From: Candidatus Methanomethylophilaceae archaeon
GTDB taxonomy: Archaea; Thermoplasmatota; Thermoplasmata; Methanomassiliicoccales; Methanomethylophilaceae
DNA: 64,000 nt
Direction of reading: 5' to 3'
Assembly: GCA_017524805.1 (NCBI GenBank)
Contig: JAFXUX010000030.1
Span: forward strand, 1 to 64,000
Shown piece after piece: positions 1,900 to 62,421 of the stretch (the first letter of the stretch is position 1; each line of letters begins with the position of its first letter). The notes below the pieces were generated by a model. That model saw nothing but the letters and a program-made list of their open reading frames with translations. It did not search any database and was not told where the DNA came from. Made by a program: the position numbers and the translations under genes.

Positions 1900-3576
1900 T
1901 CAGCAAGGCATCTGGAAGATGTCCGGATAATCCATGGAAGAGAAGAACTCGCAGAGCACCGGATTCATGGCGACTTCTAATCCCCCGCCGGACGGGCGCA
2001 TAGCCCCTGCATATCCGCGGCGCTCTCTGGCCGCCTGGATCAGGGATTCTTCCCCGAAGAGAACATTCGCAACGAACTCTTTCTCTGGCCAGCCCCTGAC
2101 TTCTGAAAGGTCGGTCTCGGTGCAGACGGAATAGCCCCGATACGCGATAGCATTGTTCCTGCTGCCCCTGACGAAGACCCTGTAGCCGCGCAGAACGAAT
2201 TCTTTCCCTCCTGCGGGCACGACCTTGATGGACCGCGGGATAGCTATAATCAGCGTCCCGTCCTTCCTTCTGAAGGCGAACGTGAGGCTGCTGATTTTTG
2301 ACGTGTCCGAAGGGTATCTGCGGATATCCAGGCGGTTCTCCGGATCCCCTGTTTTGACTATTCTGTAGACTGCTCCAAGATCCACGTTGTAATGGCGCAG
2401 AGAATCGTCAACGTTGGCCGGGTCGAAGATTTCCAGGTTCAGCCTCTTATGCTCTGGATCGTAATCTTTGCTGTCGATCGCTGCCAGGAACGAGCTCAGA
2501 TTTGCCTTGGAATGGACCAGAACCGGCATAGCCCTCTCATCATCCGAATCTTGGTACAGGTATTGGATGTATTCGCTGCCGTTGATTTCTATGGTGCCTA
2601 TCTGCGCGTAATAAGCGGTCTTGCCCCCATATCTGACGCAATGGGACATCATATCTAACCAGCGGATCTTGAGGACGTGCTTCAGCGTATCCCTGTATAA
2701 GTCGCCGTCGAACATGAAGAATTCCGGGTTCTCCCGGTCTGGGAAAAGGCTCATCTCGAACCTGTGGTCCTTGTAAGCCAGGAATTCGTCGACATTCTCG
2801 TAGCCGTTGTAAAGACGGTCGAAATCGCCGTAGTATCTCAGCAAAGCGGCGCTTTGGGTAGGGTCCAGGACGAAATATTTCCCGTCGATCTTTATGATGC
2901 TGAAAGCGTGGTTATGCATGTTTATGTGGTTCTCTATCCCCTGCCTCAGAAGAAGCTCCCCGAGGATGAGGCAATAGCCGAGGCATATGGTGCTCCCGGT
3001 GAGAAGGCCGCGCATGCTGTTGTCGTCATAGCAGGTTTTCATGCATCCGTAAGGTGGCACGGAGATGTTGAGGCCGTCCCTGTACGAATCGTTGTACTGG
3101 ATCGTGGACGTTATGCGGCTGTGAAGATACGCGAATTTCTGGAAATTGTTCCAGCGGGGATTCATAGGCTTCTCTATGTCCGCGATCACCGCCAGAATGC
3201 GGACCAACTCATCCGATGCGTACATATGCGGGCCGAACAGAGTTTTCAGGGAACTGAGGGTGCAGCAATCGAAGCTGTCGGCGTTGTTTATGCGCAGACT
3301 GTTCCTGGCGATGTTCACGAAATGCTGGCGTATGAAATAGTCGGTGCCCTTGCTGAAACGATCCATCAGCCTCAGAAACTCGGCGCTCAGACCCAGCGTA
3401 GTCCTGAGACTTACATGGCGCGTTATGCCCGCCGCCGCAAGGAAGATCCCCTCCGCCTCCTCCTGAGAGAATATCCAGTTCGAGACGCGGGAATCCACCA
3501 GACGGAACAGGGCGGCGACATCCTTTTCCGCCCCGGGCATCCGGGCCGAGATCCTTTCGTATGCTTCCGCTCTCAT
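1900..3576 (-). CDS. transglutaminase-like protein (probably the C-terminal part of one gene with 3664-4077)
   Basis: The open frame from the first ATG gives 558 residues. A transglutaminase-like core is visible near residues 190-250: Cys in GSTICLGYCLILGELLL, His in NMHNHAFSIIKIDG and Asp in FVLDPTQ, in the Cys-His-Asp order of the papain-like fold. The rest matches nothing I can name. Reading upstream of the ATG, the same frame stays open for 29 more codons to a TAG at 3664-3666. Beyond that it joins the Sel1-repeat ORF 3664-4077. The joined frame (1900-4077) would be 725 residues: Sel1 repeats followed by the transglutaminase-like domain. There is no signal peptide. The C-terminus ends just before the acyltransferase remnant. 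Confidence 0.8.
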   Translation of the reverse strand: MRAEAYERISARMPGAEKDVAALFRLVDSRVSNWIFSQEEAEGIFLAAAGITRHVSLRTTLGLSAEFLRLMDRFSKGTDYFIRQHFVNIARNSLRINNADSFDCCTLSSLKTLFGPHMYASDELVRILAVIADIEKPMNPRWNNFQKFAYLHSRITSTIQYNDSYRDGLNISVPPYGCMKTCYDDNSMRGLLTGSTICLGYCLILGELLLRQGIENHINMHNHAFSIIKIDGKYFVLDPTQSAALLRYYGDFDRLYNGYENVDEFLAYKDHRFEMSLFPDRENPEFFMFDGDLYRDTLKHVLKIRWLDMMSHCVRYGGKTAYYAQIGTIEINGSEYIQYLYQDSDDERAMPVLVHSKANLSSFLAAIDSKDYDPEHKRLNLEIFDPANVDDSLRHYNVDLGAVYRIVKTGDPENRLDIRRYPSDTSKISSLTFAFRRKDGTLIIAIPRSIKVVPAGGKEFVLRGYRVFVRGSRNNAIAYRGYSVCTETDLSEVRGWPEKEFVANVLFGEESLIQAARERRGYAGAMRPSGGGLEVAMNPVLCEFFSSMDYPDIFQMPC

Positions 3577-4077: not shown

Positions 4078-4190
4078 CCCAACCGGACACGGTATCCGTC
4101 ATGGAGGATAAGCCTGTTGCCGCCGGATGCAAAACCAAATAATATTGCCGAACAAGTATTACTAATATAGCCAATTAATAAAAAAGCATT

Positions 4191-4214
4191 CGTCCACTAT
4201 ATTTATGATGGACG
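4191..4214 (+). promoter_or_regulatory. NRPS promoter: TATA box inside an inverted repeat
   Basis: CGTCCA (4191-4196) and TGGACG (4209-4214) are perfect inverted arms around the A/T core CTATATTTATGA, which looks like the TATA box of the NRPS gene about 35-45 bp before its ATG. A dyad that embraces the TATA box is where an archaeal repressor would compete with TBP. A GGGAG ribosome-binding site lies about 8 bases before the ATG at 4243. Confidence 0.5.
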
Positions 4215-4242
4215 CGATGCGAAACCATCAGGGAGTGCCGAA

Positions 4243-7200
4243 ATGCGCGATGTATTCGGGATGATTTTGGAGAGAATGGAATCTTCGCCAGATAAATTGG
4301 CGATATGGACTGCCGAGGGGACCTTCACATATGATGAGCTGCGCGAATACTCCTCTCGGGCAGCGGCATCTCTGAAAAGGGACGGCCTTCAGAAGGGCCA
4401 GGGAATAACCATAGAGCTTCCCCGCTGCAAAGAATATATCGGCTTCATGCTTGGGGCATGGATGCTGGGGGCGTTCTTCGTCCCCTCTGACAGCGCTTAT
4501 CCGGACGACAGGAAAGAATTCATCGCAAAAGACAGCGGAGCCATGATACGCGTGACCCCGGATTACGTTTCCGATCTTTCGGCGGCCCCCCTCGATCGCG
4601 ATCCAGTGATCCCTTCTATGGGCGACAGAGCTTTCATCATCTACACCTCCGGATCCACGGGCCGGCCAAAAGGCGTCATCCACTCCCATCTCTCCATTTC
4701 TTCGTACGTCGAAAGGATCGAAGACATGTTCAATGTCATGGATTCCGACAGGTTCGCGAACCCTGCGGCGTTCACCTTCATCGTCGGGACCGCGATCATC
4801 CTCCCGCTGCTTGCGCTCGGGTGCGAAGACTACATAGTTCCCGCCGACGTGCGCATGAATCTCAACAAACTATCGGATTTCACCTCCGAACACGGCATAA
4901 CCATGACATTCATGGCGCCGGCGATGCTCCCATACTTCCGCCAGAGGAAGAAGACGATCCGCTTGGTCATCATCGGCGGAGAGCGCGCGGTGAAGGCATG
5001 GTCTGATGATTTCGTCATTGTCAACGGATACGGGTCCTCGGAGACCTGCAGCATGGCAACCTGCTTCTTCCTCGACAGAGCTTACGACAATACCCCTCTG
5101 GGAAAACCTGCCAAAAACGTATGCGCCTACGTTCTGGACAAAGATGGAAAGGAAGCGGAGGAAGGGGAGATATGCTTCGCCGGACACTTCTCGGACGGAT
5201 ATCTCAACCTTCCCGAAGCCACCGCCAAGGCCTTCGTCCCCAACCCGTTCAAAAATCGCGATGGATTCGGCGTGATGATCCGCACTGGGGATATAGGACG
5301 CCGCCTGGAGGACGGGAATCTGCTGTTCCTCGAGCGCAACGATTGGATGGTGAACATCAACGGGCAGCGCGTGGAGCCCGGGGAGATATCCGGGGTCATG
5401 ATGGGTTTGCCAGGCATCATCCAAGCCGCCGTGAAGGACTTCGAAGGCGCGGACGGCCAGACCTTCCTCTGCACCTATTACGCCGCGGCCGCTGACATCC
5501 CGGTGGACGCCGTACGCGACTATCTCAGAAGCAAACTGCCGGGATATATGGTTCCTGCGTATCTCATCAGGATGGATAGGCTGCCCCTGAATGCCAGCGG
5601 GAAGATCGACAGGAAATCCCTTCCGAATCCGACCGAACCAGGGAGCGGCTCGGCAATAACCGCCGGGCCGACCGATTTCGAGGAGAATGCCGTCACCAAA
5701 GGAGTGAGGGAGATTCTGAAGTCGATAACCGGAAGGGATGACTTCCGCTACGATGAGAACCTCGCATACTGCGGCCTGAGCTCTCTCACGGCAATCAAAT
5801 TCACGTCGGAAGTGATGGGAAGGTTTGGCGTCGATTTGGATGTGATTTCGATGCTGGGAGGATGCTCCATCGCCTCGGTATCGGATGAGATAATCTCCAA
5901 GCTGGTGGAGAAATCCGCTTCGGCGCCCGCGGAGAGGAAAGAGCTCAGGGACATGTACCCTCTTACCGGCCCGCAGATGGGCGTATACCAGGCATGCTAC
6001 GCGGATCCGGATACGGTGATGTACAACCTTCCGATGCAGGCCAGAATCCCGAAGAGCCAGCTGTCCGGCCGGAGTATCGATGATATAATCAGGAAGGTAG
6101 TAGAAGCCCATCCGGGCCTAAAATGCACCATCGGCCACGACGGCAAAGGGGAGCCGTGCATGATCCCCCACCCGGACGCGGAAGTCAGGATAGAGCGCAT
6201 GGGAGGCTCGGAATCCGATCTGGAGGCATACCGCGGAACGTTCGTGAGGCCATTCGACCTGTCCGAGAGCCTGTACAGGATCGTGACCTTCGATATCGGC
6301 GATGATATCGCGCTGCTTATGGACTTCAGCCACATCATGTTCGACGGATCGTCCAGTCTGGTCCTGATGGACGACATAAAGGCCGCCATATCCGGGAGAG
6401 ATCCGATAGCCGAGACTTACACCATGTTCGACCTCTCGGACGAGGAATCGGAACGTGCTGGGTCGGGAGACTATAGTCGTTCTTTGAAGTACTATAGTGA
6501 ACTTCTGTCTGATGTGGACGGAACATCCCTGATACAGAGGGACGCCTACGGCGATACCAAGTCCAAAGGCCACCTGAGATCCAAGCTGAATCTGCGGCCG
6601 GAAAGCCTCAAGACGTTCGTAGAAGCGTCTGGATCCACGGAGAACGCATTCTTCCAGTCGGTGATGGGCTTCGCCCTGTCCAGATTCAACTGCACCGACG
6701 ATTCGTGCCACGCCACGGTGCACAACGGCAGAAAAGGAGGGAGAACCTCGCGCTTGGTGGGGATGCTTGTCAAGACGCTTCCGGTCGTAGCCAGATACGA
6801 TCTTGACGAAAGCCCGGGCGCGCTGGTAAAGCGCATGACAGACCAGCTGGCAGCCTCGATGCGGAACGACACCGTGCCTTTCTCGGAGATCAGCTCCCGC
6901 TTCGGCGTGACATCGGATGTGCTCTTCGCTTACCAGGGGATCCTGGATGATGAGGGCGTCCTCGACTCCCAGATGGAGATAAAGGATGTCAAAAACGCGC
7001 TGACCGTCCAGGTCTATCCCATGAAGGACGGCTTCCTCATTGATTTGGAGTATGACGCCTCGATGTATTCGAAAGGCATCATGGAAAGCTTCCTCGATGT
7101 CCTGCAGAGATGCTCGACGGATTTCATCGTATCGCCGACGCTGAGGGACGTCGCCATCGCCGGGGAAGATGACATCGCCCTGCTGAAGCGCGTGAACTCC

Positions 7201-10200
7201 ACAGATTCGGATTATGACAGAAATAAGACTATAGTGGATTTATTCAGAGAAAGGGCAAAAGAGCGTCCAGATCGCCCGGCTGTTGAGTTTAATAGTACTA
7301 TAGTCTCCTATTCGGAACTGGACAGGATATCGGACCACATCGCTTCGTTCATCGCGTCCAAAGGCATAGGCAAAGACCGGTTCGTCGCCATCCTGGTCCC
7401 GAGATCCGAATCCATGGTCATAGCGGCGATGGGCGTGGTGAAATCGGGCGCGGCATATCAGCCTCTGGATCCGACCTATCCGGAAGAGCGCCTCCTGTAC
7501 ATGATGGGAGACTCCGACGTCAAACTGCTGATCGCCGACCGCTCCTTGGCTGGCCTGGTCCGCGGATACGAATGCGACGTGCTGTACACAGACGAATTCG
7601 ATGAAAGATTCGGAGGCCAGGCGCCGGACGTCCGCTCCCTGTCTCCCTCCCCGAAAGACGCGTTCGTTATCCTGTACACATCCGGAACCACCGGCAAACC
7701 CAAAGGGTGCGTCCTGGAAAACGGGAACATAGCTGCCTTCGCGAACTGGTACGGCGATGAGATCGGCCTGGGCCCAGAATCCAAATACGCGACGTACGCC
7801 AGCTTCGGATTCTATGCGTGCATGATGGACACTATGGTGCCCCTCTCCCGCGGATCCTGCGTATGCGTCATCCCGAACGAGATCCGCAGCGACCTCGCCG
7901 CGATGGACTCCTTCTTCACGGAGAAAGGAATCACCCACAGCTTCATGACCACGCAGATGGGCAGGATGTTCATGGAGACCATCCAATGCAGATCTCTGAG
8001 CCACTTCTGCACGGGCGGAGAAGCTCTGGTGCCGCTGAACCCACCGGATTGGATTGAATTCCGCAATCTGTACGGCCCCACGGAGACCACAGTCAGCGTA
8101 ACATCATTCATCGTCAGAGACGACAGCCCTCTCTTGCCGATAGGGAAGCCGAACACAAACGTCAGGGTGTACGTCCTGGACAGCGACCGCAGGATAGTGC
8201 CGACTGGCGCGTGCGGGGAACTCTGCATAAGCGGGCCGCAGGTATTCAGAGGGTATCTCAACAACCCTGACAAAACCGCCTCCGTCCTCGTGGACAACCC
8301 GTATTCAGACGGGCCGGACCACCGGAAGCTTTACAGGACAGGAGACATCGTCCGTCTCCTTCCCGACGGCAACATAGATTACATAGGCCGGCGCGACGGA
8401 ATGGTGAAGGTCCGCGGATTCAGGATAGAGCTCACCGAAGTCGAAAGGGCAATCCGTGCCTTCCACGGCATCAAAGATGCGACGGTGCAGGCCTTCGACG
8501 CCCCGTCCGGCGGGAAGCAGATCGCGGCGTACGTCGTCTCCGACGAAAAGGTGGATATCAAAGAATTGGAGAGCTTCATCCTCAGCACCAAACCGCCGTA
8601 CATGGTCCCGGCGGTCACGATGCAGCTGGACAGCATCCCGCTCACGGTCAACAGCAAGGTCGACAGGAGGAAGCTCCCAGTCCCGGCGCTGGACTTCGGC
8701 AAGGCGACCCCGCCTCAGACGGAAACTCAGAAGCGCATATTCAAGATAGCAACGGAAGTGCTGGGCACGGATAAGTTCGGGATAGACACGGATCTGTTTC
8801 ATGCAGGGCTCACATCCATAGGCAGCATCCGCTTCAACGTCCTGCTCTCCGATGAGTTCGGCATTCCCTTCAAATCGAAGGACATCAAAGAGAACAGCAC
8901 CATCGAGAAACTTGAGAAACTGATAGAAAGCTCCGCCCCCGCCAAAACCTACGGGATCCAGGACGACTATCCCCTCACCAAATCGCAGGAAGGGATATTC
9001 GTAGAATGCATGGCCAGGCCGGAAAGCACCGTCTACAACATCCCGCTGCTGATCAGGTACGACGATTCGATCGATGAAGGAAAGCTGAAGGCGGCCATCG
9101 TCAAGGCGGTGAACGCCCACCCCTTCATGATGGCGACGATTTTCGCCGACCAATCCGGGGACATCCGCCTGCTCAGAAAAGGCCTGCCGACGTTCTCCGA
9201 GGAGGAGATAGAAGAGGTGACCGCAAAGTCCATCGACTCCCTGATGCCGACGCTGGCCCAGCCTTTCAGACTCATCGGCTCCAGGCTGTTCCGCATCAAG
9301 CTGATACACGCCGACAGGAACTACCTGTTCATCGAGATGCACCACATAATCAGCGACGGCACATCGATGAACATACTCACCGAAGACATCACCAAAGCCT
9401 ATTCCGGCGAAGAGCTGAGCGCAGAGAAGTTCAGCGGATTCGAGGCGTCGCTCAAAGAGGCCGAGGAGAGGACCGATGAGGCCCTGTCGAAGGCGAAGAA
9501 GTACTACGATGGCCTTCTGGCCGGATACGACAGAGACTCTCTCCCCAAAGGCGACAGATACCATCCCGATCCGAGTGCCCCCAGCGTTTTCGTGATGGAA
9601 AGCGAGCTCAACTCCGCGCCCAAACTGTCCGAGAGCTGCGAGAGAGCCGGGATCACAGTCAACAGCCTCATGCTCTCGGCTTTCGGATTCGTTCTGGCGA
9701 AATACAACGGCAACGAGCATTCGGTGTTCACGACGATATACAACGGGAGGAACGACTCCAGAACCATGGATTCCATCTCGATGTACGTGAAGACGCTCCC
9801 GGTGCTCTGCGACGTCTCGGATGAGTCGATGTCACCTCTACGCCTTTCAGAGAAGACCGGTGAGCAAATTCTGAGCAGCATGGCGAACGACATCTACTCA
9901 TTCGCTGAGATCAGCCGCGAGCTGGAAGTCAAGGCCGATGTGCTGTTCGTCTATCAGGGAGACGGCTTCGGATTCGACAGCTTCTGCGGGAAGCCTTCAG
10001 AGTCCGTCATGGTAAGCCTCTCCGGAGAGAAAGAACCCATGCTTTTCCAGGCCGTGATCCAGGGCGGCAGACTCGCGTACCAGGTGGAGTACGACAAAGA
10101 CAGGTTCACAGAGAAATTCATAGGTTCCTTCGCGAGAGCTTTCGATAAGGCTCTGTCCGAGTTCCTGGGATGCGCGACCCTCCGCGAGATCAGCCTTTCT

Positions 10201-13167
10201 GACGGGAGAACAGCGGAAGCCTTCAGGAAGCTGAACGACACCGATTCGCCTTACGACAGGTCGCTGACCGTCGTCGACATGTTCAGGAAGAATGCCAGGG
10301 AGCATCCCGACAGCCTGGCCGTGGTCCACCTCGGCGAGAGCATGACCTACGGGAAGCTGGACGAGGTCACCGACCACATCGCAGGATACGTCAATTCCAA
10401 GGGCATCGGCAGGGACGAGTACGTTGCTGTGCTGGTACCCAGATCGATCCACATGGTCGTCGCGGCTGAGGGGATAATAAAGGCCGGAGCGGCATATCAG
10501 CCCCTGGATCCGACCTATCCGGAGGAGCGTCTTCTCTTCATGATGAAGGACTCCGACGTCAGGCTGCTGATAGCCGACAGAAAGCTCCGCGATATGGTCC
10601 CAGGTTATGAAGGAGAAGTGCTGTACATCGACGAGATCCCGGGCCTCTGCGCAGGCGAGCGTCCGGACGTGTCCGCGCTGGCCCCATCCCCAGAGGACGC
10701 GATCATAATTCTGTATACCTCAGGCACCACCGGGACTCCGAAGGGCTGCGTTCTCGAGCACAGGAATCTCTCCAGCTTCCTCAACTGGATGATCCCTGAG
10801 GTAAAGCTGGAGAACGGATCGAGATACGCATCGTACGCCAGCTACGGATTCGACGCGTGCATGATGGACATCCACGCATCCCTGTCCAGCGGCGCCACCG
10901 TCCACATAATCCCCGACGAGATCCGCAAGGACCTGGCCGAGGTAGACAGATACTTCATCAGCAACGGGATAACGCACGGCTTCATGACCACGCAGATGGG
11001 CAGGATGTTCATGGAGACCACCCAATGCAGATCCCTGAAGGCATTCATGTCCGGAGGGGAGAGCCTCGTGCCGCTCAACCCGCCGAAATGGGTCGACTTC
11101 TACAACATCTACGGGCCGACGGAATGCACCGTGGACGTCACCACCTTCATTGTGAAGGACGACAGCCCGCTGCTGCCGATAGGAAAGCCGAACACCAATG
11201 TGAGGCTTTACGTCATCGACAAGAGCGACAGGATCGTTCCTGTGGGTTGCTGCGGAGAGCTTTGCATCAGCGGGCCCCAGGTGTTCAGGGAATACCTCAA
11301 CAACCCCGAGAAGACAGCGAAAACCGTCACCAGAAACCCGTTCTCCGACGAGCCCGGACACGAACGCCTCTACAGGACCGGAGACGTAGTACGCCTGCTG
11401 CCGGACGGCAACATAGACTACATCGGCCGCCGCGACGGAATGGTGAAAGTCCGCGGATTCAGGATAGAGCTAGGAGAAGTGGAAGGCATCGTCCGCAGCT
11501 ACGAAGGCATCAAGAACGCCACCGTGAAAGCGTTCGACGACCCCGCCGGAGGGAAGTCGATAACCGCGTACGTAGTCTCAGACAATCCTGTGGATTTCAA
11601 AGGCCTTGCAGATTTCATAAGAGCATCCAAGCCTCCGTACATGGTCCCGGCGCATTTCGTGCAGCTGGATTCAATACCCATGAACGCCAACGGGAAGGTC
11701 GACAGAAGGAAGCTCCCAGAGCCTTCGTCCGAACCCAGGAGAGCCGGGAAGGAGCCTTCTGATCCGATGGAAGCCAAGCTGTGCGAGATATATGCCAGCG
11801 TCCTCGGCCTGAAGAAAGTCTATGCGGACGACGACTTCTTCGAGATCGGCGGTACATCCATCTCCGCGTCCAAGCTGGTGCTGAGCTGCATGAACTCCGG
11901 GTTCCCGATAGTCTACAAGAACGTCTTCGACAACCCGTCGCCGGAATCTTTGGCCAAGTTCATCGGGACCTTGGGACAGACCGGCAAGGAGGAAACCAGA
12001 GCGGCGATCGACGAGAGCCCGCTGTCTTGGAACGTAACGGAGAACCTGGATTCCATAAGCTCCCACAGCCCGCGCAGGATCCTTCTGACCGGAGCCACCG
12101 GATACCTCGGTTCCCACGTCCTATGGGAGCTTCTGAGAAGGAACGCCAAGCATGTCTATTGCCTGGTCAGAAGCGGGAAGGGCCAGACTTCCGAGGAAAG
12201 ACTGAAAACCATGTATATGTACTACTTCGGCGGGATGGGCACCGAAGACTCCCTCAGAAACGTCACGGTCATCGACAGCGACATCACCGACCCGAATCTG
12301 ATGAGCAAACTTGAGGGATGCGAGTTCGACACCATCATCAACTGCGCCGCGGTGGTGAAGCACTTCGCCGCGGACGATTCGATAGACAAGGTGAACGTCG
12401 GCGGAGTGACGAATCTCATAGGCGTGGCGGAAAAGACCGGTTCCATCTTGGTTCAGATCTCCACCGAAAGCGTGGCCGGGGAATCCGTCAACGGAAGCAT
12501 ACCTCCCGAACGCAAGATCAGAGAGAATGAGCTGGACTTCGGACAGAACCTGGACAACAAATACGCCCGCTCCAAGTTCATGGCCGAGGAGGAGATCATC
12601 AAGGCCATCCCGAGCGGCCTGAAGGCGAAGATAATCCGCGTGGGTAACCTGATGAGCCGCGACAGCGACGGAGAGTTCCAGATCAACTTCGGCACCAACG
12701 CGTTCATGAAGCAGATGAAATCCTATGTGAAGCTGGGATTCTTCTCGGTCACCGACATGGACTCAGAGGTGGAGTTCTCCCCCATAGACATGGTCGCGAA
12801 GGCCGTCGTCATCCTCGCTGGCACCCCCGATAAGTTTACCACGTTCCACGTGAGCAACTGCCACAAAGTCCACATGGCAAACGTGCTCAAAGTCATGAGG
12901 GACAACGGGATGCCTGTCGAGGTCGTTTCGAAGAAGGAATTCGAGAGAAGGTTCCAGGAAGCGATGAAAGACGAATCCAATGTGGAGTACATCTCCGGAC
13001 TGATCAGCTATCTGGGCAACGCAGGGGAGTCGCGCAGGTTCGTGGCCGCGGACGATTCGTATACTGTGAAAGCGCTGTACAGGCTCGGGTTCTCGTGGCC
13101 GATCATATCCGACGGATACATCGACAAGGCGTTCAAAGCCCTCAAGTCCATGAGATTCTTCAGATGA
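4243..13167 (+). CDS. three-module non-ribosomal peptide synthetase with terminal reductase domain
   Basis: This 2974-residue NRPS reads A1-T1-C1-A2-T2-C2-A3-T3-R. A1 (about 1-475) has IIYTSGSTG near 132-140. T1 carries its phosphopantetheine Ser at 514. C1 (about 570-985) has SHIMFDG at 696-702, and A2 spans about 1000-1480. The T2 Ser is 1525. C2 (about 1575-1995) has HHIISDG at 1700-1706, and A3 spans about 2010-2490. The T3 Ser is 2539. R (about 2605-2970) has GATGYLG at 2617-2623 and an SDR-type YxxxK at 2774-2778. All A domains keep the NxxGKxDRK lysine. The layout predicts a chain of three building blocks released by NAD(P)H as an aldehyde or alcohol. No N-terminal C domain or thioesterase is present, so A1-T1 is the loading module. 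A1 and A2 lack the Asp that binds the alpha-amino group. The PPTase follows after 19 bp, probably in one operon. Confidence 0.96.
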   Translation: MRDVFGMILERMESSPDKLAIWTAEGTFTYDELREYSSRAAASLKRDGLQKGQGITIELPRCKEYIGFMLGAWMLGAFFVPSDSAYPDDRKEFIAKDSGAMIRVTPDYVSDLSAAPLDRDPVIPSMGDRAFIIYTSGSTGRPKGVIHSHLSISSYVERIEDMFNVMDSDRFANPAAFTFIVGTAIILPLLALGCEDYIVPADVRMNLNKLSDFTSEHGITMTFMAPAMLPYFRQRKKTIRLVIIGGERAVKAWSDDFVIVNGYGSSETCSMATCFFLDRAYDNTPLGKPAKNVCAYVLDKDGKEAEEGEICFAGHFSDGYLNLPEATAKAFVPNPFKNRDGFGVMIRTGDIGRRLEDGNLLFLERNDWMVNINGQRVEPGEISGVMMGLPGIIQAAVKDFEGADGQTFLCTYYAAAADIPVDAVRDYLRSKLPGYMVPAYLIRMDRLPLNASGKIDRKSLPNPTEPGSGSAITAGPTDFEENAVTKGVREILKSITGRDDFRYDENLAYCGLSSLTAIKFTSEVMGRFGVDLDVISMLGGCSIASVSDEIISKLVEKSASAPAERKELRDMYPLTGPQMGVYQACYADPDTVMYNLPMQARIPKSQLSGRSIDDIIRKVVEAHPGLKCTIGHDGKGEPCMIPHPDAEVRIERMGGSESDLEAYRGTFVRPFDLSESLYRIVTFDIGDDIALLMDFSHIMFDGSSSLVLMDDIKAAISGRDPIAETYTMFDLSDEESERAGSGDYSRSLKYYSELLSDVDGTSLIQRDAYGDTKSKGHLRSKLNLRPESLKTFVEASGSTENAFFQSVMGFALSRFNCTDDSCHATVHNGRKGGRTSRLVGMLVKTLPVVARYDLDESPGALVKRMTDQLAASMRNDTVPFSEISSRFGVTSDVLFAYQGILDDEGVLDSQMEIKDVKNALTVQVYPMKDGFLIDLEYDASMYSKGIMESFLDVLQRCSTDFIVSPTLRDVAIAGEDDIALLKRVNSTDSDYDRNKTIVDLFRERAKERPDRPAVEFNSTIVSYSELDRISDHIASFIASKGIGKDRFVAILVPRSESMVIAAMGVVKSGAAYQPLDPTYPEERLLYMMGDSDVKLLIADRSLAGLVRGYECDVLYTDEFDERFGGQAPDVRSLSPSPKDAFVILYTSGTTGKPKGCVLENGNIAAFANWYGDEIGLGPESKYATYASFGFYACMMDTMVPLSRGSCVCVIPNEIRSDLAAMDSFFTEKGITHSFMTTQMGRMFMETIQCRSLSHFCTGGEALVPLNPPDWIEFRNLYGPTETTVSVTSFIVRDDSPLLPIGKPNTNVRVYVLDSDRRIVPTGACGELCISGPQVFRGYLNNPDKTASVLVDNPYSDGPDHRKLYRTGDIVRLLPDGNIDYIGRRDGMVKVRGFRIELTEVERAIRAFHGIKDATVQAFDAPSGGKQIAAYVVSDEKVDIKELESFILSTKPPYMVPAVTMQLDSIPLTVNSKVDRRKLPVPALDFGKATPPQTETQKRIFKIATEVLGTDKFGIDTDLFHAGLTSIGSIRFNVLLSDEFGIPFKSKDIKENSTIEKLEKLIESSAPAKTYGIQDDYPLTKSQEGIFVECMARPESTVYNIPLLIRYDDSIDEGKLKAAIVKAVNAHPFMMATIFADQSGDIRLLRKGLPTFSEEEIEEVTAKSIDSLMPTLAQPFRLIGSRLFRIKLIHADRNYLFIEMHHIISDGTSMNILTEDITKAYSGEELSAEKFSGFEASLKEAEERTDEALSKAKKYYDGLLAGYDRDSLPKGDRYHPDPSAPSVFVMESELNSAPKLSESCERAGITVNSLMLSAFGFVLAKYNGNEHSVFTTIYNGRNDSRTMDSISMYVKTLPVLCDVSDESMSPLRLSEKTGEQILSSMANDIYSFAEISRELEVKADVLFVYQGDGFGFDSFCGKPSESVMVSLSGEKEPMLFQAVIQGGRLAYQVEYDKDRFTEKFIGSFARAFDKALSEFLGCATLREISLSDGRTAEAFRKLNDTDSPYDRSLTVVDMFRKNAREHPDSLAVVHLGESMTYGKLDEVTDHIAGYVNSKGIGRDEYVAVLVPRSIHMVVAAEGIIKAGAAYQPLDPTYPEERLLFMMKDSDVRLLIADRKLRDMVPGYEGEVLYIDEIPGLCAGERPDVSALAPSPEDAIIILYTSGTTGTPKGCVLEHRNLSSFLNWMIPEVKLENGSRYASYASYGFDACMMDIHASLSSGATVHIIPDEIRKDLAEVDRYFISNGITHGFMTTQMGRMFMETTQCRSLKAFMSGGESLVPLNPPKWVDFYNIYGPTECTVDVTTFIVKDDSPLLPIGKPNTNVRLYVIDKSDRIVPVGCCGELCISGPQVFREYLNNPEKTAKTVTRNPFSDEPGHERLYRTGDVVRLLPDGNIDYIGRRDGMVKVRGFRIELGEVEGIVRSYEGIKNATVKAFDDPAGGKSITAYVVSDNPVDFKGLADFIRASKPPYMVPAHFVQLDSIPMNANGKVDRRKLPEPSSEPRRAGKEPSDPMEAKLCEIYASVLGLKKVYADDDFFEIGGTSISASKLVLSCMNSGFPIVYKNVFDNPSPESLAKFIGTLGQTGKEETRAAIDESPLSWNVTENLDSISSHSPRRILLTGATGYLGSHVLWELLRRNAKHVYCLVRSGKGQTSEERLKTMYMYYFGGMGTEDSLRNVTVIDSDITDPNLMSKLEGCEFDTIINCAAVVKHFAADDSIDKVNVGGVTNLIGVAEKTGSILVQISTESVAGESVNGSIPPERKIRENELDFGQNLDNKYARSKFMAEEEIIKAIPSGLKAKIIRVGNLMSRDSDGEFQINFGTNAFMKQMKSYVKLGFFSVTDMDSEVEFSPIDMVAKAVVILAGTPDKFTTFHVSNCHKVHMANVLKVMRDNGMPVEVVSKKEFERRFQEAMKDESNVEYISGLISYLGNAGESRRFVAADDSYTVKALYRLGFSWPIISDGYIDKAFKALKSMRFFR

Positions 13168-13186
13168 AAGCGCAGAGGAGAGAGCC

Positions 13187-13858
13187 ATGAAGACAAGGAC
13201 ATACTACTCGGAAACAGGCCCCTTGGATGACCCGCGGCTTTACTCCGTCCTTTATGGCAGGATGCCTGATGAGCGCAAAAGGAAAGCGGACAGATTCCTG
13301 TTCCATAAGGACAGAAGCCTCTGCGTGGGGACCTGGGCGCTTCTGCGCAAGGCCCTGGAGGATCTCGGGGAAAACCCTGATGCCGTCGCTTTAGAATATG
13401 GAGCCAACGGCAAACCATTCCTGGAGGGATCGTGGGTGAAGTTCAACCTTTCCCACTCGGAGGAAAGGGTGATGTGCTCCGTCTCCGACACGGACGTCGG
13501 CTGCGACGTTGAGACGGTAAGATATGCCGGCCTGGACATGGCCCGCAGATTCTTCCACGGCTCGGAATACGATTCCATCGCCGCAGCGGAAGGTACGGAG
13601 GAGATGCCGATGCTGTTCTGCCGCTTCTGGACGCTCAAAGAAAGCTTCATGAAAGCCACGGGGCTGGGCATGTCGCTCCCCCTCGACTCGTTCCGCGTGA
13701 TCCTAGGCGATGACATACGCGCAGAGCAGAGCGTTGACGATAGAGAGTGGCTATTCAAAGAATACGATCCGCATGACGGATACCGCTGCGCCGCGTGCTC
13801 CTTCGGCGGGGGCTTCGAGCCTTCGATGAGACGCATAGAACTGACCGAACTGACGTGA
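13187..13858 (+). CDS. Sfp-type 4'-phosphopantetheinyl transferase
   Basis: This 223-residue protein transfers phosphopantetheine from CoA to carrier-protein serines. It has the Sfp motifs in order: NLSHSEERV near 87-95, the Mg-binding GCDVE with Asp107 and Glu109, and FWTLKESFMKATG with Lys151, Glu152 and Lys156. The length is typical of the Sfp class. It follows the NRPS by 19 bp with a GAGGAGAG ribosome-binding site, so it is almost certainly co-transcribed and serves the three T domains. Archaea do not otherwise need a dedicated carrier-protein PPTase in most lineages, so the gene probably arrived with the NRPS. Confidence 0.95.
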   Translation: MKTRTYYSETGPLDDPRLYSVLYGRMPDERKRKADRFLFHKDRSLCVGTWALLRKALEDLGENPDAVALEYGANGKPFLEGSWVKFNLSHSEERVMCSVSDTDVGCDVETVRYAGLDMARRFFHGSEYDSIAAAEGTEEMPMLFCRFWTLKESFMKATGLGMSLPLDSFRVILGDDIRAEQSVDDREWLFKEYDPHDGYRCAACSFGGGFEPSMRRIELTELT

Positions 13859-13915
13859 TACGGACTTGTTTTAACGGACGAACGACAAACAGATCAAAAC
13901 CTGAAGGATGAGACG

Positions 13916-15733
13916 ATGACCGAGACCGCCGAAAAGAAAGGCATAGCTGGATTCCTTGGCTGTCTATTCAAAAAACCCCCGTCCAATGATGTCTTAGATG
14001 AGATCTTAGCTCAGAGAGACAGCCGCGGAGACAGGATTCTGGAAATAATGATTGCCGCGGTTATCCTCATGAACATAGTATGGATCAACCTGGAAGATGA
14101 AATGCCGCACATGTATCCGATTAAAATGGATATTCTGTACGCTTCCATAGCCATTATGTTCATATGCGCGGTGGCGTGCATCCTAATCGGAAGCCGCTGG
14201 TGGACGAAATACCTTCTGATAGGCTCGATCGCCCTCAATTCGTTCATCATCGTTGGCGTAATAGACCATACCATGATGATCATGATGATCCTGCCGGTGG
14301 TATCCAGCTGCATCTACTATCGCAACAATCTGACCAAGGCAATGATCGTCTTATGCGCGTTGTTGATGCTCATCGGACTCTTCCTATACGGCAGCTCATC
14401 GCCCATAGCGTTCGGGTTATACTATGGCATGACAGAGCTCGACAGAATGGTGTCCATGATCACCACATTTTACATCGTAGATCTGCTCATCTATCTGCTC
14501 ATCTGCATCCCATGCTATTACGCGACTAAGAACGGGATTGACGATATCAGAAAGGAATACGATCTCAGAAGGGAGCAGATAGGGATGGAAAAAGAGATGT
14601 CCAACGCCAGAGGCATCCAGCAGGGGCTTCTCATTAAGGACTTCCCCTGCAAGCAATACTGCGACATCTCCTCGTTCATGTCCGCCTCCAAAGAGGTCGG
14701 CGGCGACTTCTACGACTGCTTCAGGATCGGGGACGACCGCCTCGCCATCGTCATGGCCGACGTATCCGGGAAAGGCCTGTCAGCCGCCCTGTTCATGGCC
14801 ACATCCATGACCCTCATAAGGTCCAACGTGCAGGCGGGAGGGGATCTGGAAAAGGCAATGGAGAAAGCTAACAGAGAATTGGCCGCGTCCAATCCCATGA
14901 AATATTTCGTCACGGTCTGGATCGGCATCATTGACCTCAGGCATGGGGGCCTTTCTTTCGTGAACGCCGGGCACAACCCCCCATTCATCCGCAAGGACGG
15001 GAAATATGAGATGCTGATTTCGAAGCCGGACTTCGTGTTCGGCAGAAAGAAAAGGATGACGTACAACAGGCACCACATAAATTTTGACGTGGGCGACGGC
15101 ATTTTCCTTTATACCGACGGAGTGACCGAGGCCGCAGGGCCGGACGGAAGCATGTTCGGTGTCGACCGCCTGAAGGAATCCCTTTCCTCGGTGGGAAACC
15201 TGTCCCCGGATTACGTCCTGTCCAAAATAAAATCGGATGTGGACAACTTCGTCAGAGACGCCGACCAAAGCGACGATATGACTATGATGCAGGTGGATTA
15301 CACCCACGCATACGATCTCAAGCCCGATGACGGCATAAAGGTCCGCGCGGACAGGGAAGGATACGCTCTGGTGATGGAACGCATCAAGCAGAGGATGACA
15401 GAAGGAGGCTGCCCGCCCAGGACCATCACGGAAATGGAGACGGCCTGCTCCGAGATCTACGCCAACATAGACATGTACGCATACGCGGACAAGGAAGAGA
15501 AAGGAGACGTCCTCGTCACAACCGACATCGTCAACGGAGCGGTACGCATAACGTTCAAAGATTGGGGGATCCCGTTCAATCCTATCGAACACGAAACCCC
15601 AGACCCCATAGCCAGCTTCAAAGAGCGCAAGCGCGGAGGGCTCGGCATAATGCTGGTAAAAAAGATATGCGATGACGTATCGTACGTCCGCGAAGGCAAC
15701 TGCAACATTTTGAAGCTGGAAAAAGAGATGTGA
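13916..15733 (+). CDS. membrane PP2C (SpoIIE/RsbU-type) phosphatase fused to an RsbW-like HATPase domain
   Basis: This 605-residue protein has about six membrane helices (roughly residues 40-210) and a short coiled linker. A PP2C-type phosphatase follows: GGDFYDCF near 262, MADVSGKGLSAALF near 280, NAGHNPPF, LYTDGVTEA and SDDMTMM near 453. A C-terminal HATPase of the anti-sigma-kinase type has an N box near 505 (ETACSEIYANID), a G1 box DWGIP near 548 and a G2 box RGGLGIML near 573. It thus joins the phosphatase and kinase halves of a partner-switching module in one membrane protein. The STAS gene follows after 4 bp and is the obvious substrate. The signal sensed by the membrane part is unknown. 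The gene starts 57 bp after the PPTase on the same strand, so control of, or co-expression with, the NRPS operon is possible. Confidence 0.92.
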   Translation: MTETAEKKGIAGFLGCLFKKPPSNDVLDEILAQRDSRGDRILEIMIAAVILMNIVWINLEDEMPHMYPIKMDILYASIAIMFICAVACILIGSRWWTKYLLIGSIALNSFIIVGVIDHTMMIMMILPVVSSCIYYRNNLTKAMIVLCALLMLIGLFLYGSSSPIAFGLYYGMTELDRMVSMITTFYIVDLLIYLLICIPCYYATKNGIDDIRKEYDLRREQIGMEKEMSNARGIQQGLLIKDFPCKQYCDISSFMSASKEVGGDFYDCFRIGDDRLAIVMADVSGKGLSAALFMATSMTLIRSNVQAGGDLEKAMEKANRELAASNPMKYFVTVWIGIIDLRHGGLSFVNAGHNPPFIRKDGKYEMLISKPDFVFGRKKRMTYNRHHINFDVGDGIFLYTDGVTEAAGPDGSMFGVDRLKESLSSVGNLSPDYVLSKIKSDVDNFVRDADQSDDMTMMQVDYTHAYDLKPDDGIKVRADREGYALVMERIKQRMTEGGCPPRTITEMETACSEIYANIDMYAYADKEEKGDVLVTTDIVNGAVRITFKDWGIPFNPIEHETPDPIASFKERKRGGLGIMLVKKICDDVSYVREGNCNILKLEKEM

Positions 15734-15737
15734 TACC

Positions 15738-16034
15738 ATGGAATTCGGAATAGAGAAGAAAGACGGCGTGACCACGATAGCCCCCAAAGGCAACGTCGAC
15801 TACGTGACGGCCCCGGAACTGGATGAGGTCGTGGAGAGGGAAGCCGCAACGGCCGCATCGCTGGTTTTCGACATGTCCGGCGTATCTTACATATCGTCAG
15901 CGGGACTCAGATCCCTTCTGAACGCGGACGAGCTCATGGAAGATAAGAACGGCATCAAGCTGATCAACGTGAACAAGGAAGTGAAAGCGGTCCTGGACAT
16001 GACCAACTTCTCGGGGTTGCTGAATATAGAGTGA
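15738..16034 (+). CDS. STAS-domain anti-anti-sigma-like protein
   Basis: This 98-residue single STAS domain is the size of SpoIIAA/RsbV. The phosphoacceptor loop is visible in VFDMSGVSYISSAGLRSLL, with Ser54 at the place of SpoIIAA Ser58. The start lies 4 bp after the phosphatase/kinase gene, so the two are translationally linked. In bacteria such proteins are phosphorylated by an RsbW kinase and dephosphorylated by an RsbU phosphatase to control a sigma factor. Archaea have no sigma factors, so the downstream target here must be something else. That target is not visible in the window. Confidence 0.93.
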   Translation: MEFGIEKKDGVTTIAPKGNVDYVTAPELDEVVEREAATAASLVFDMSGVSYISSAGLRSLLNADELMEDKNGIKLINVNKEVKAVLDMTNFSGLLNIE

Positions 16035-16117
16035 AAAACGCCACGCCACTGAGACTTGCAGACTGTGGAGGGGTTTGAAGGGCGGCCCGAAGATGAACCG
16101 CCCTGGATGCCGCGCTT

Positions 16118-16594: not shown

Positions 16595-17455
16595 TCAGAG
16601 GGGTTTTATGTCCCAGAGCTTGAGACCATTCTTCTCCGCCCATCTGACCGTATCGCGGTACAGCCTCGTGTCGAAGAAATCCGAATCCGAGAAAGCCAGC
16701 CGAAGCGCGCCTCCCAAAGCCCCTTCGTTGAGATTCCTGGCGTTGAAAGAGCCGAAATTGGTGGTGAGCGCCAAAAGCAATATGGAAACGGTGTCATGGC
16801 CTCTGGCGGCATGCCAAGGATCCTCGAGCTCCGCCTCCTCTTTCTGCAGAAGTTCCATCAGCAGGCCGCTTGATGCCTTCGCAGAGCCGGAATTGGATAG
16901 AACCTCCTTGATGAGGTCCTTCTTGTCGAGGCGCAGGGACTTGCGGTCGATGAATTTCCCCGCATCCAGATCGCCGAAATTGAGGTCCAGGCTCTGGCGC
17001 ATGGAGATGTGCATGAGAAGCCCGATCGGGCTGCTGGAATTGACCAGAACATCTCTGACTGGACCGTATTTGGATGTGAACGCCTTCAATTTGTCGCGGT
17101 CAGCGTATTCGTCTAGCACGTCGTCCAAAGCGTTGCTCCTGATGCAGAGCATCTCCATGTCCCTGCAATCCGTGCGGAAAAGCGGAGGCGTCTCGCATTT
17201 GTGGTCCAGAAGATCCAGATCCGCGTCCACTATCCCGATGACCTCCTTGAGCCCTCTGTGCCCGGTAAGCTCCTTGACGGCCCTGCGGACGTTGTCCTTG
17301 GAATGGCACTGAACTATCCTGACGCCCTCGGCGATGAATTTTCCGTAGACGCGGTCGTCTGTGACGCCTTCTACCAGAACGAATGCGCCGCCCACAGCGG
17401 AGCGCATCATCATGACTTCGTTGCAGACGTCGCTGCTCCCCAGATTACTGCGCAT
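16595..17455 (-). CDS. DUF4435 TOPRIM-type protein (AriB-like), second gene of an ATPase pair
   Basis: This 286-residue protein carries a TOPRIM signature near the N-terminus. Glu29 lies in FVLVEGVTDDRVYGKF, and Asp77 and Asp79 in VIGIVDADLDLL, in the spacing of the E and DxD motifs that bind Mg2+ in OLD and topoisomerase nucleases. The family match is DUF4435. It starts inside the end of the upstream AAA ATPase gene (11-bp overlap), so the two are translated together. In PARIS, the anti-phage system AriA (AAA15 ATPase) + AriB (DUF4435), the ATPase holds the TOPRIM effector until phage proteins trigger it. The acidic residues are intact, so an active nuclease is plausible. The start could also be the Met cluster at residue 15. 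Confidence 0.75.
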   Translation of the reverse strand: MRSNLGSSDVCNEVMMMRSAVGGAFVLVEGVTDDRVYGKFIAEGVRIVQCHSKDNVRRAVKELTGHRGLKEVIGIVDADLDLLDHKCETPPLFRTDCRDMEMLCIRSNALDDVLDEYADRDKLKAFTSKYGPVRDVLVNSSSPIGLLMHISMRQSLDLNFGDLDAGKFIDRKSLRLDKKDLIKEVLSNSGSAKASSGLLMELLQKEEAELEDPWHAARGHDTVSILLLALTTNFGSFNARNLNEGALGGALRLAFSDSDFFDTRLYRDTVRWAEKNGLKLWDIKPL

Positions 17456-18485
17456 TTTCAGGCTTCATCTCCCTGGCATTGTCCCAAAGGTCGTGGATGA
17501 CCTGGGGAGAGTGCGTGGCGGCTATTATCTGGATGCCCCTCACCCTGCAGATGTCCGAGAATATGGCTCCGAGCTTCTGCTGCCACACTATGTGCAGCGA
17601 GATCTCCGGCTCATCGATTATGACCGCGGTCCCGGGTTCGGCGTGGAAGAGGATGATGTAGAGCATGATCATGATCTGCTTCTCGCCGGATGAGAGCCTG
17701 GAAAGCTGGAGGGCGCCCCCGCAATCCAATGTCACCGAGATCTTCCCGTTGTCGAGGATGTCGACGGTCTTGTTGATGAACAATTCGTTGATCAGATCCT
17801 TATAAATCACTATGGATTCGGCCAGGATGTAATTCTTTTCGACGTATTCGGAGATGGAATAAGCGAGATCCTCGTAATCCTTCCTGTAATTCATGAGCTC
17901 GTATCTGGACGGCGGGAACCTGTACCCAGCAGGGATATCGGGCTCGAACCCCGCATCGCTGATGAAATCCAATTTGGCCTTGAGGTCCTTGCACCAGAAT
18001 TCCAGCTCGCCGTCGGTCATCTCTTTGCGCTTGCCCTCGTATGGAACCAGCTCGGAATGCTCGCGAGAGTATCTGATGCGCTCATAGAGCTCTTGGGCGT
18101 AGGTCTCGAGGGCGGGAGCCAGATGGCCGTCTTTCTTCTTGATGACGAGCCTCTCGGGGGAGATGTATGTGACATCGCATATGTCGGCCATCTCTTCCGG
18201 GGTTATCTCCGTCTCCAGCTCATTCTTCTGCATCTGGATGAGCAATTCGCCGGAATTATTCTCGATTATCAGATTCGTCCCGTCGAAGAAGCCTATGTCC
18301 AGCCTTGTAAAGGGCGTTTCCGATAGATATCTCACGTCGCCCTTCATAGCGGCATATACCATGCGCATGACCGTGCTTTTTCCGAACCCGTTCTGGGCAT
18401 GGATGAAAGTGAGCCCGTCGCACAGATTCAGCGTATAATCGAACTGGTTGAACAGTCCGCTGATGTAGAGCGATTTGATGATCAT
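17445..18485 (-). CDS. AAA family ATPase (AriA-like), first gene of an ATPase/TOPRIM pair
   Basis: This is an SMC/ABC-like AAA ATPase of about 346 residues. Walker A is HAQNGFGKST (residues 29-38, Lys36). Signature-like LSSGEKQ, Walker B VIIDEPEISLH and switch ATHSPQ lie towards the C-terminus, all intact. The middle region is helical. A TTG start at 18500 is open in the same frame, but the ATG at 18485 has GGAG seven bases before it and begins at the usual MIIKSLYISG, so I choose it. It overlaps the DUF4435 gene and is divergent from the TPR gene by 90 bp. The pairing of an AAA15/AAA21-type ATPase with DUF4435 is the PARIS arrangement, although this ATPase is shorter than well-known AriA proteins. 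Confidence 0.85.
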   Translation of the reverse strand: MIIKSLYISGLFNQFDYTLNLCDGLTFIHAQNGFGKSTVMRMVYAAMKGDVRYLSETPFTRLDIGFFDGTNLIIENNSGELLIQMQKNELETEITPEEMADICDVTYISPERLVIKKKDGHLAPALETYAQELYERIRYSREHSELVPYEGKRKEMTDGELEFWCKDLKAKLDFISDAGFEPDIPAGYRFPPSRYELMNYRKDYEDLAYSISEYVEKNYILAESIVIYKDLINELFINKTVDILDNGKISVTLDCGGALQLSRLSSGEKQIMIMLYIILFHAEPGTAVIIDEPEISLHIVWQQKLGAIFSDICRVRGIQIIAATHSPQVIHDLWDNAREMKPENAQ

Positions 18486-18575
18486 ATGAACGCTCCGCAA
18501 TCGATTTGCAGTTATTTATTGGATGCTCCCGGCATTCTGGCGATAAAGTTATTTTCAGCTCGCCGATGCCGTGCC

Positions 18576-45269: not shown

Positions 45270-46727
45270 ATGAACGGTAAAACGATAGCTATTATCTGCG
45301 CGATCGTAGTGATCGTCGTAGCAATAGCTGCCGCAGCTTTGCTCCTGAATGGAGACTCAAAAAGCGGTGGCGGAGACAAATACACTGTGGGAGAGGACGT
45401 AAAAGCCGATCCCCTTTATGAGAAATTTGATGTTGAAAACGTAGAGAACCTCGTTTTCGGCAATGCTAACAACGATGGCTACCTTAACAACGAAGATCTG
45501 ACCCTCCTCAAACAGTTTGTCGCTGGAACCAAAACTTGGAGCATCGATGCTAACCCGCTCGCCGATACCAACGCAGATGGAAAGGTGACGCAAGAAGATG
45601 TGGATATGCTCCAGAGAATGCTCAACGCCACTTCCAGCACCGAGCAATTCGAAGTTAAATACCTCAACTATTACAAGCGCGTTGCGACATCTCTCTTCCC
45701 CCTGAGAGGCAACATTACTGTCCAGTACAACACTGGATACGATGTTGCGGTTGTCCTCGGCGTTCTTGACGATGTCGTCGGAACTGGACATGGCGGAGAG
45801 AACCACATAAAAGGACTCAGCGAGACCCTTTATCCCGGCCTCAAGAGTCACCTCACCTACATCGACAACGATGCCGGAGACTTCGACGCAGAGAAAATCC
45901 TCGCTACCAAGACCAAGATTGTTCTCGGTGACCCCTATGGAACCACAGACGAATTCGCCAGCGAGATGAAGAAGCTGGACTCAACCTGTACTGTTCTTAA
46001 CTTGCCTCTAAACAGATACCTGAACGGCGTCGACTACACACAGACAATCATTACAATGGGAGTCCTCATGGGGCTTCAGGCTAACACAGCAAAATACGTC
46101 GAATATATCAAAGACATCAACACCTCCATTGATAATGCCATAAAGAATGCTCACGCGTCCTCTAAAACGTATGTCATCTCTTTCCAGCCCTCATCCGCCA
46201 CAAACATCGATCTGGACTGTGTGAACACGATGGCAATGCAGTACAACGACGTCATGAACATGGAAAAGCTCCCCGTTACCTACGCGCTTCCCCCTGTGAC
46301 CAGGTACTACGGCGGAATGTACACCGGACTTGAAGCGGAATATCTCGCTACCAAGAACCCTGAATTCGTCATTTTGGAGCACTATGGCATCGCAGGAAGC
46401 GACACGAGCCTCGAAGATTTCAAGAAAAAAGTCTCGCCTGTAGTCGACTATTTCAGCGTCACCAACGCTTACATGAACGACAAGATTATCGTCATGCCGT
46501 TCGAGCTTATAGGCGGCATTCACGGGCTTGCAACCATATGCTACATCGGATACCTCATGTGGGGCGACGATTACTTCCCCGAAGAGGATGCGATGAACAA
46601 GGTGAACTACTACTTCCAGAACTTCACCAACATGGGCAAAGACATCGACATGTCTGCCGACTACCACTACCTCCCGATAAAGTGCGGTGAGAACCAGAAG
46701 CTCAACGACTACACTCCCGGCGCTTGA
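45270..46727 (+). CDS. ABC substrate-binding lipoprotein-like protein with dockerin-like EF-hand pair (BtuF/FepB type)
   Basis: This 485-residue protein has an N-terminal membrane anchor (IAIICAIVVIVVAIAAAALLL) and a Gly/Ser linker. Two dockerin-type calcium loops follow: N65-N67-D69..D76 in FGNANNDGYLNNEDLTLLKQ and D99-N101-D103..D110 in DTNADGKVTQEDVDMLQRML. Then comes a helical-backbone binding-protein domain of the FepB/BtuF type (VAVVLGVLDDVVGTG ... VILEHYGIAG). It would capture a metal complex or corrinoid outside the membrane. It starts the operon with a FecCD permease and an ATPase. A dockerin module in a binding protein is unusual. Confidence 0.9.
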   Translation: MNGKTIAIICAIVVIVVAIAAAALLLNGDSKSGGGDKYTVGEDVKADPLYEKFDVENVENLVFGNANNDGYLNNEDLTLLKQFVAGTKTWSIDANPLADTNADGKVTQEDVDMLQRMLNATSSTEQFEVKYLNYYKRVATSLFPLRGNITVQYNTGYDVAVVLGVLDDVVGTGHGGENHIKGLSETLYPGLKSHLTYIDNDAGDFDAEKILATKTKIVLGDPYGTTDEFASEMKKLDSTCTVLNLPLNRYLNGVDYTQTIITMGVLMGLQANTAKYVEYIKDINTSIDNAIKNAHASSKTYVISFQPSSATNIDLDCVNTMAMQYNDVMNMEKLPVTYALPPVTRYYGGMYTGLEAEYLATKNPEFVILEHYGIAGSDTSLEDFKKKVSPVVDYFSVTNAYMNDKIIVMPFELIGGIHGLATICYIGYLMWGDDYFPEEDAMNKVNYYFQNFTNMGKDIDMSADYHYLPIKCGENQKLNDYTPGA

Positions 46728-46735
46728 GATCAATT

Positions 46736-46758
46736 GATGGCCCCTTCGGGGTGCCATC
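46736..46758 (+). promoter_or_regulatory. intercistronic stem-loop after the binding-protein gene
   Basis: GATGGC (46736-46741) pairs with GCCATC (46753-46758), enclosing a CCC-TTC-GGG hairpin, and is followed by CCCCTTCTTTC. It sits between the binding protein and permease genes, where a partial terminator or RNA-stabilising element would allow more binding protein than permease. Confidence 0.5.
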
Positions 46759-46782
46759 CCCTTCTTTCAAAGTGGTGCTGAA

Positions 46783-47940: not shown

Positions 47941-47942
47941 GA

Positions 47943-62373: not shown

Positions 62374-62421
62374 ACTTCTCGGAAGAGAAAGAACCTAAAA
62401 TGTGATGGCGTTCACTGCGGC

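Follow-up and report, generated by a model that had tools for sequence, protein, structure and literature searches.

A portable four-gene NRPS cassette of bacterial ancestry in a Methanomethylophilaceae archaeon, with a predicted non-amino starter, aldehyde release and a probable partner switch

Results

An intact three-module NRPS with a terminal reductase

Analysis of a 64,000-nucleotide stretch of a Methanomethylophilaceae genome (hereafter the window) identified an NRPS encoded at the head of a mobile gene block. The reading that we favor, with some reservation, is that of a portable four-gene cassette of bacterial ancestry that makes an N-acyl or α-ketoacyl dipeptide aldehyde under partner-switch control. 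The 1.95 Mb genome is 98% complete and archaeal; Nre, thermosome and RFC-like AAA marker genes lie in the window and the relatives are Methanomethylophilaceae MAGs and genomes, in agreement with the archaeal host given in a preliminary description of this DNA. That description had taken the NRPS and its PPTase as the unit; both were confirmed, but the unit continues to position 16034 with two more genes.

The NRPS gene (4243..13167, + strand) is a single unbroken ORF of 2974 aa with the domain order A-T-C-A-T-C-A-T-R, in which Pfam recognized three AMP-binding, two Condensation, three PP-binding and one NAD_binding_4 domains (E values of 1e-201 to 1e-24). Ten-residue adenylation domain codes were mapped via alignment to LgrA. 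All on the + strand, the domains are the starter adenylation domain A1 (4243..5652, code IVAFIGGSMK), the T1 carrier (5674..5928, Ser514), C1 (5938..7182, Pfam match and motif SHIMFDG, with the first histidine changed and the catalytic second histidine retained), A2 (7195..8697, code YAMFCGLVSK), T2 (8710..8940, Ser1525), C2 (8950..10212, motif HHIISDG), A3 (10225..11736, code DAMFMGIVDK), T3 (11740..11976, Ser2539), and the thioester reductase domain R (11977..13164). The R domain, recognized by Pfam and by its motifs, has 6vtj/6vtz as its best solved relative and retains GATGYLG (the GxxGxxG cofactor motif), S/T and YxxxK. As proposed earlier, these motifs predict reductive release of an aldehyde or alcohol.

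With A, T and C domains in module order, intact motifs, carrier serines and a PPTase, the enzyme has the makeup of a modular NRPS, and the complete three-module architecture first noted from the sequence was borne out. S514, S1525 and S2539 are kept in all complete archaeal relatives. General decay of the cluster, which had been named as a check, can be rejected, as close orthologs are intact, their carrier serines are conserved and the NRPS is under purifying selection (dN/dS of about 0.12 versus close orthologs). Comparison of the A2 and A3 codes with known specificities gave no confident amino acid match; A3 is the putative selector of the residue destined to become the aldehyde. Upstream of the gene, a TATA-like element, TATATTTA, lies between the two arms (CGTCCA/TGGACG) of a 6-bp inverted repeat at 4190-4215, about 30-50 nt from the NRPS start, and is a possible promoter with operator.

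The starter domain lacks the amine-binding aspartate and the YGP proline

The first unit of the chain is probably an acid other than an amino acid, because the amine-binding aspartate and the proline of the YGP(TE) motif are lost in every A1 relative. The 13 A1 relatives that cover the site, archaeal and bacterial, all have Ile or Val in place of Asp235 (I180 in the window), and the proline is replaced by Ser, Leu or Met in 14/14 (S265 in the window). Among the non-A1 domains compared, both residues are kept except in the window A2 and in one gapped row. In L014, a bacterial type-I enzyme, the first A domain is of another kind; it keeps the aspartate and lies outside the A1 clade.

The alignment puts the A1 YGP-proline position exactly at LgrA P483. 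In StsA, a keto-acid adenylation domain, the aspartate is changed to Ile and the YGP proline to Met; reversion of this Met to Pro kills activity, and LgrA P483M gains keto-acid activity, according to a 2024 review (PMC11253843). Both α-keto-acid hallmarks, an aliphatic residue at 235 and a non-proline at the position of LgrA P483, are present in A1. From this signature, A1 probably loads an acid without an α-amine, most likely a keto acid or a simple branched acid. Depsipeptide keto-acid modules usually include a KR domain (cf. PMC10949194), which is absent from module 1, where T1 directly follows A1; because of this absence, A1 is not classed here as an α-keto-acid member and is said only to work like one.

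The lack of a KR domain would make a keto-acid starter unusual. A second point against it is McyG, which activates Phe despite Val at 235 (PMC11253843), so that loss of the aspartate alone is no proof of a non-amino substrate. On this precedent, A1 might accept a hydrophobic amino acid without Asp235 and the product would be a conventional tripeptide aldehyde, as the preliminary description implied in taking three modules as three amino acids. The AlphaFold model of A1 (pLDDT 82.6), whose nearest solved fold is the LgrA initiation module, lends this alternative some support, since the modeled fold lies nearest the LgrA and GrsA amino acid domains. However, the two losses, of Asp235 and of the YGP proline, coincide; they affect all A1 domains of the clade and no others, whereas A2 and A3 retain both residues (window A2 Tyr excepted), and we consider a tripeptide product unlikely.

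A non-amino starter would leave no free N-terminal amine and hence no pyrazinone cyclization, which speaks against the pyrazinone product suggested earlier. An aureusimine/phevalin-type pyrazinone synthetase, like gut bacterial ones, would share release by an R domain, and AusA is the top NCBIfam model with 1573 bits; yet this score is below the AusA cut-off of 2500, and the enzyme has three modules, not two. A pyrazinone synthetase is accordingly a very improbable assignment. For the favored capped dipeptide, the A1 code varies among close orthologs and the A3 code is nearly fixed (DAMFMGIVNK), a pattern that would fit a cap that varies and an aldehyde residue that stays the same.

A single-genome change in A2

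Position 235 differs among the three adenylation domains of the window, being Asp in A3, Ile clade-wide in A1, and Tyr in A2 in one genome. This tyrosine (Y1191, codon TAT at 7813-7815) occurs in the window only, all A2 orthologs having Asp (code DAMF[S/F]G[L/I]VSK). Position 331 of A3 is Asp in the window versus Asn in orthologs. Judged from its position, Tyr235 may cripple or redirect module 2, and the assembly line would then be impaired, with the Asp-to-Tyr change at aa 1191 blocking amino acid loading, unless the base is an assembly error. The uniqueness of the tyrosine to the host genome among all A2/A3-type domains compared favors such a reading, but dN/dS within A2 is 0.10-0.12, showing no relaxation, and neither the frame nor any other motif is disrupted, so that we regard impairment as rather unlikely. 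Given this dN/dS, Tyr1191 would be one of three things: a recent change, a shift in specificity or a sequence error.

Four genes and a candidate partner switch

A gap of 19 bp separates the NRPS from an Sfp-type 4'-phosphopantetheinyl transferase (13187..13858, + strand; ACPS match, 6e-17). As the only PF01648 match in the genome, it fits the dedicated Sfp PPTase reported previously. The third gene encodes a SpoIIE (PP2C) phosphatase fused to an RsbW/SpoIIAB-like kinase domain (13916..15733, + strand), with a hydrophobic, probably membrane, N-terminal part, and the fourth a 98-aa STAS anti-sigma-factor-antagonist-like protein of RsbV type (15738..16034, + strand). In searches of the genome, PPTase, SpoIIE and STAS gave a single match each and carrier domains gave three, all of them within the cassette.

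The order NRPS, PPTase, SpoIIE-kinase, STAS recurs in L003, L004 and L073; in L005 no PPTase adjoins the NRPS, and in the horse-gut L008 and the C-A-T-C-A-T-R cassettes L074 and L075 the order is NRPS, SpoIIE-kinase, STAS, PPTase. The RsbU/V/W components, namely a PP2C phosphatase, a kinase domain and a STAS protein, are all present, and the fusion and STAS protein probably constitute a complete RsbU/RsbW/RsbV-type partner switch controlling production. Against this reading stands the archaeal host, which would have no sigma factor to regulate; to our knowledge, archaea lack sigma factors.

Across the family, SpoIIE is enriched with NRPS (15/17 versus 16/85 genomes, p = 8e-8). At genus level, SpoIIE also occurs in 14 of the 18 NRPS-less genomes (Fisher p = 0.37), and its presence was rejected as an NRPS marker; since the association is absent within the genus, only adjacency is used here as evidence. 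The genus-level distribution would suit SpoIIE-kinase-STAS genes that are passengers without a tie to peptide production. We consider this improbable, because the set adjoins the NRPS in both archaeal architectures, all four genes travel as a single block, and phosphatase, kinase and STAS genes lie near several bacterial NRPSs, where a kinase domain is also fused to a MATE exporter.

This combination of a MATE exporter and an RsbW-like kinase domain in one protein was found upstream of bacterial NRPSs at L009:4351-6099, L014:3162-4823, L017:2895-4673 and L021:445-2217; the fusion is unusual and ties export to the partner switch. The archaeal cassettes examined contain no exporter, and the window holds none of the genome's nine or so MATE genes.

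The cassette moves as a block

On the evidence of sharp alignment ends in unrelated flanks and of a site that is without it in a close relative, the four-gene cassette moves as a block. An alignment of the window with L004 spans 11,879 bp (4253 to 16035) at 76% nucleotide identity and breaks off at the cassette borders. None of the four relatives has related flanks, apart from a single short match upstream that L003 shares with L073. In the close relative G061, the segment 1684..16097 is missing at the syntenic site and replaced by 1.1 kb of unrelated DNA; the abhydrolase gene (here up to 1683) and the PNPOx-like gene (here from 16098) are separated there by 1.1 kb that contains an unrelated ORF. 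G061 carries its own cassette on another contig, so that the site is not always occupied and, within the genus, a copy has been relocated or exchanged. The difference at the G061 site could reflect either insertion here or loss there.

The missing segment comprises the cassette and an ORF at 1900-3576 (- strand) for a 558-aa transglutaminase-like protein (weak DUF553), which was not found beside other cassettes. Cassette GC3 is 0.72-0.76 versus 0.72-0.83 for housekeeping genes; GC content was therefore discarded as a sign of recent transfer, since composition is ameliorated and, by this measure, transfer into the lineage is not recent. No convincing terminal repeats were found at the cassette ends. 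In L075, a type II NRPS cassette has a resolvase/recombinase gene (L075:798-2093) some 3.5 kb away.

Beyond the cassette, the window holds a PARIS-like pair at 16595-18500 (- strand), in which a DUF4435 protein resembles AriB (4e-17) and an AAA protein AriA (9e-25); as the pair occupies the same locus in NRPS-less relatives, it is a genus resident and not part of the cassette. An archaeal Dockerin type I domain protein adjoins a FecCD-type ABC importer (45270-48776), and BspA-type leucine-rich repeat proteins were noted at 48-551 (one, by eye) and 61189-63849 (two, by Pfam).

Distribution and bacterial ancestry

A Condensation domain scored over the cut-off in 18 of 102 Methanomethylophilaceae genomes, and methanogen NRPSs have been published, which qualifies the earlier remark that NRPSs are rare in archaea. 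Close A1 relatives (55-76% identity) were found in 8/147 genomes of the order, host genome included, all eight from two genera of Methanomethylophilaceae; the close relatives found are MAGs from ruminant fore-stomachs. An A1 search for bacterial relatives within one order (394 genomes) matched only the starting genome. Further giant NRPSs (frames of 5225-5768 aa, with weak C-domain matches) were seen in G054, G055 and G068, and are akin in size to the ISO4-G1 enzyme discussed below.

The cassette is of bacterial ancestry, as the donor proposed earlier would require. In the R-domain tree, sequences of the two archaeal architectures group together (100/99) within a background of gut Bacillota. 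The A1 domains form one clade (SH-aLRT 100). A second clade (99) unites A2, A3 and C-starter-type A domains from archaea, which is what duplication of modules 2 and 3 in this lineage would be expected to produce. A C-A-T-C-A-T architecture is found in the sister cassettes L074-L078 and not in the window NRPS.

A shared origin with Methanobrevibacter NRPSs was also considered and gains no support from the R tree, in which 6vtj, presumably the M. ruminantium reductase, lies far off and apart from the Methanomethylophilaceae clade, though on a very long branch. This placement suggests that Methanobrevibacter and Methanomethylophilaceae NRPSs were acquired separately.

Discussion

In the proposed pathway, the PPTase would prime the three carrier domains, and A1 would put an acid without an α-amine, most likely a small branched α-keto acid or similar, on T1. 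C1 would couple this acid to the amino acid on T2 and C2 would then attach the amino acid on T3, after which the R domain would free the chain by NAD(P)H reduction to give an N-acyl (or α-ketoacyl) dipeptide aldehyde, possibly further reduced to the alcohol. The chemistry of such capped aldehydes would fit inhibition of serine and cysteine proteases, and the partner switch would probably govern production. We also put forward, as a doubtful though not negligible possibility, a mobile archaeal line that combines an unreduced α-keto-acid-capped dipeptide aldehyde, a switch rewired to an archaeal target, and a starter exchangeable with the C-starter among sister cassettes.

Methane mitigation targets the methylotrophic methanogens of rumen and gut, whose secondary metabolism is little known. 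An intact, mobile, aldehyde-releasing synthetase in an order other than that of Methanobrevibacter suggests protease-inhibitor-like signals or weapons. The A1 signature marks a testable starter-loading subfamily common to archaea and gut Clostridia. For the partner switch, the question is what it would control in cells that lack sigma factors.

Gut methanogens are already known to carry NRPSs, including Methanobrevibacter and one Methanomassiliicoccales isolate. A 2021 rumen survey recorded NRPS clusters in Methanobrevibacter only (PMC8241843), and NRPSs go unmentioned in papers describing the ISO4-H5 genome and 243 Methanomassiliicoccales genomes. In literature searched mostly outside subscription journals, we found no description of an R-terminated NRPS in Methanomethylophilaceae or of the A1 signature.

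The M. ruminantium M1 clusters mru0068 and mru0351, reported in 2010 (PMC2812497), likewise represent gut methanogen NRPSs of bacterial origin. Genes for PPTase, serine phosphatase, kinase and anti-sigma antagonist accompany them, close by or grouped in another cluster; Leahy et al. proposed sensing and regulation for the phosphatases and antagonists beside the NRPS (PMC2812497). For mru0068, the Fig. S8 legend gives a thioester reductase domain and the text a thioesterase (PMC2812497). The top PDB match of the cassette R domain is 6vtj, but mru0068 opens with a C domain (C-A-T-C-A-T), and the M. ruminantium cluster includes a MatE exporter that the cassette lacks. ISO4-G1, of the same methanogen order, has a pyrrolysine-containing NRPS, AUP07_0971, described in 2016 (PMC4824259); this multi-module protein of 5216 aa with a pyrrolysine codon is a different enzyme, and its genome (G050) has no SpoIIE match and no close A1 relative.

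AusA (NF047350), the highest-scoring NCBIfam model, is similarly an R-terminated NRPS with a partner PPTase, but has two modules (A-T-C-A-T-R), an amino acid starter and a pyrazinone product. Closer in architecture are NRPSs of rumen and gut Lachnospiraceae, Clostridia and Acholeplasmatales (L009, L017, L010, L007), which show A-T-C-A-T-C-A-T-R wholly or in part, with an A1-clade starter and an R domain, and several have PPTase, SpoIIE and STAS genes near. They differ in sharing 33-42% identity and in their A3 codes, and L009 and L017, like L014 and L021, have the upstream kinase-MATE fusion that the cassette is without. StsA-type α-keto-acid domains resemble A1 in the aliphatic residue at 235 and the non-proline in YGP (PMC11253843), whereas their modules carry a ketoreductase and A1 belongs to a starter A-T unit. 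Finally, Rv1364c (3ke6) also joins a phosphatase to a kinase domain; compared with it and with RsbU/RsbV/RsbW, the cassette stands apart in its archaeal host without a sigma factor, its separate STAS gene and the hydrophobic N-terminus of its fusion protein.
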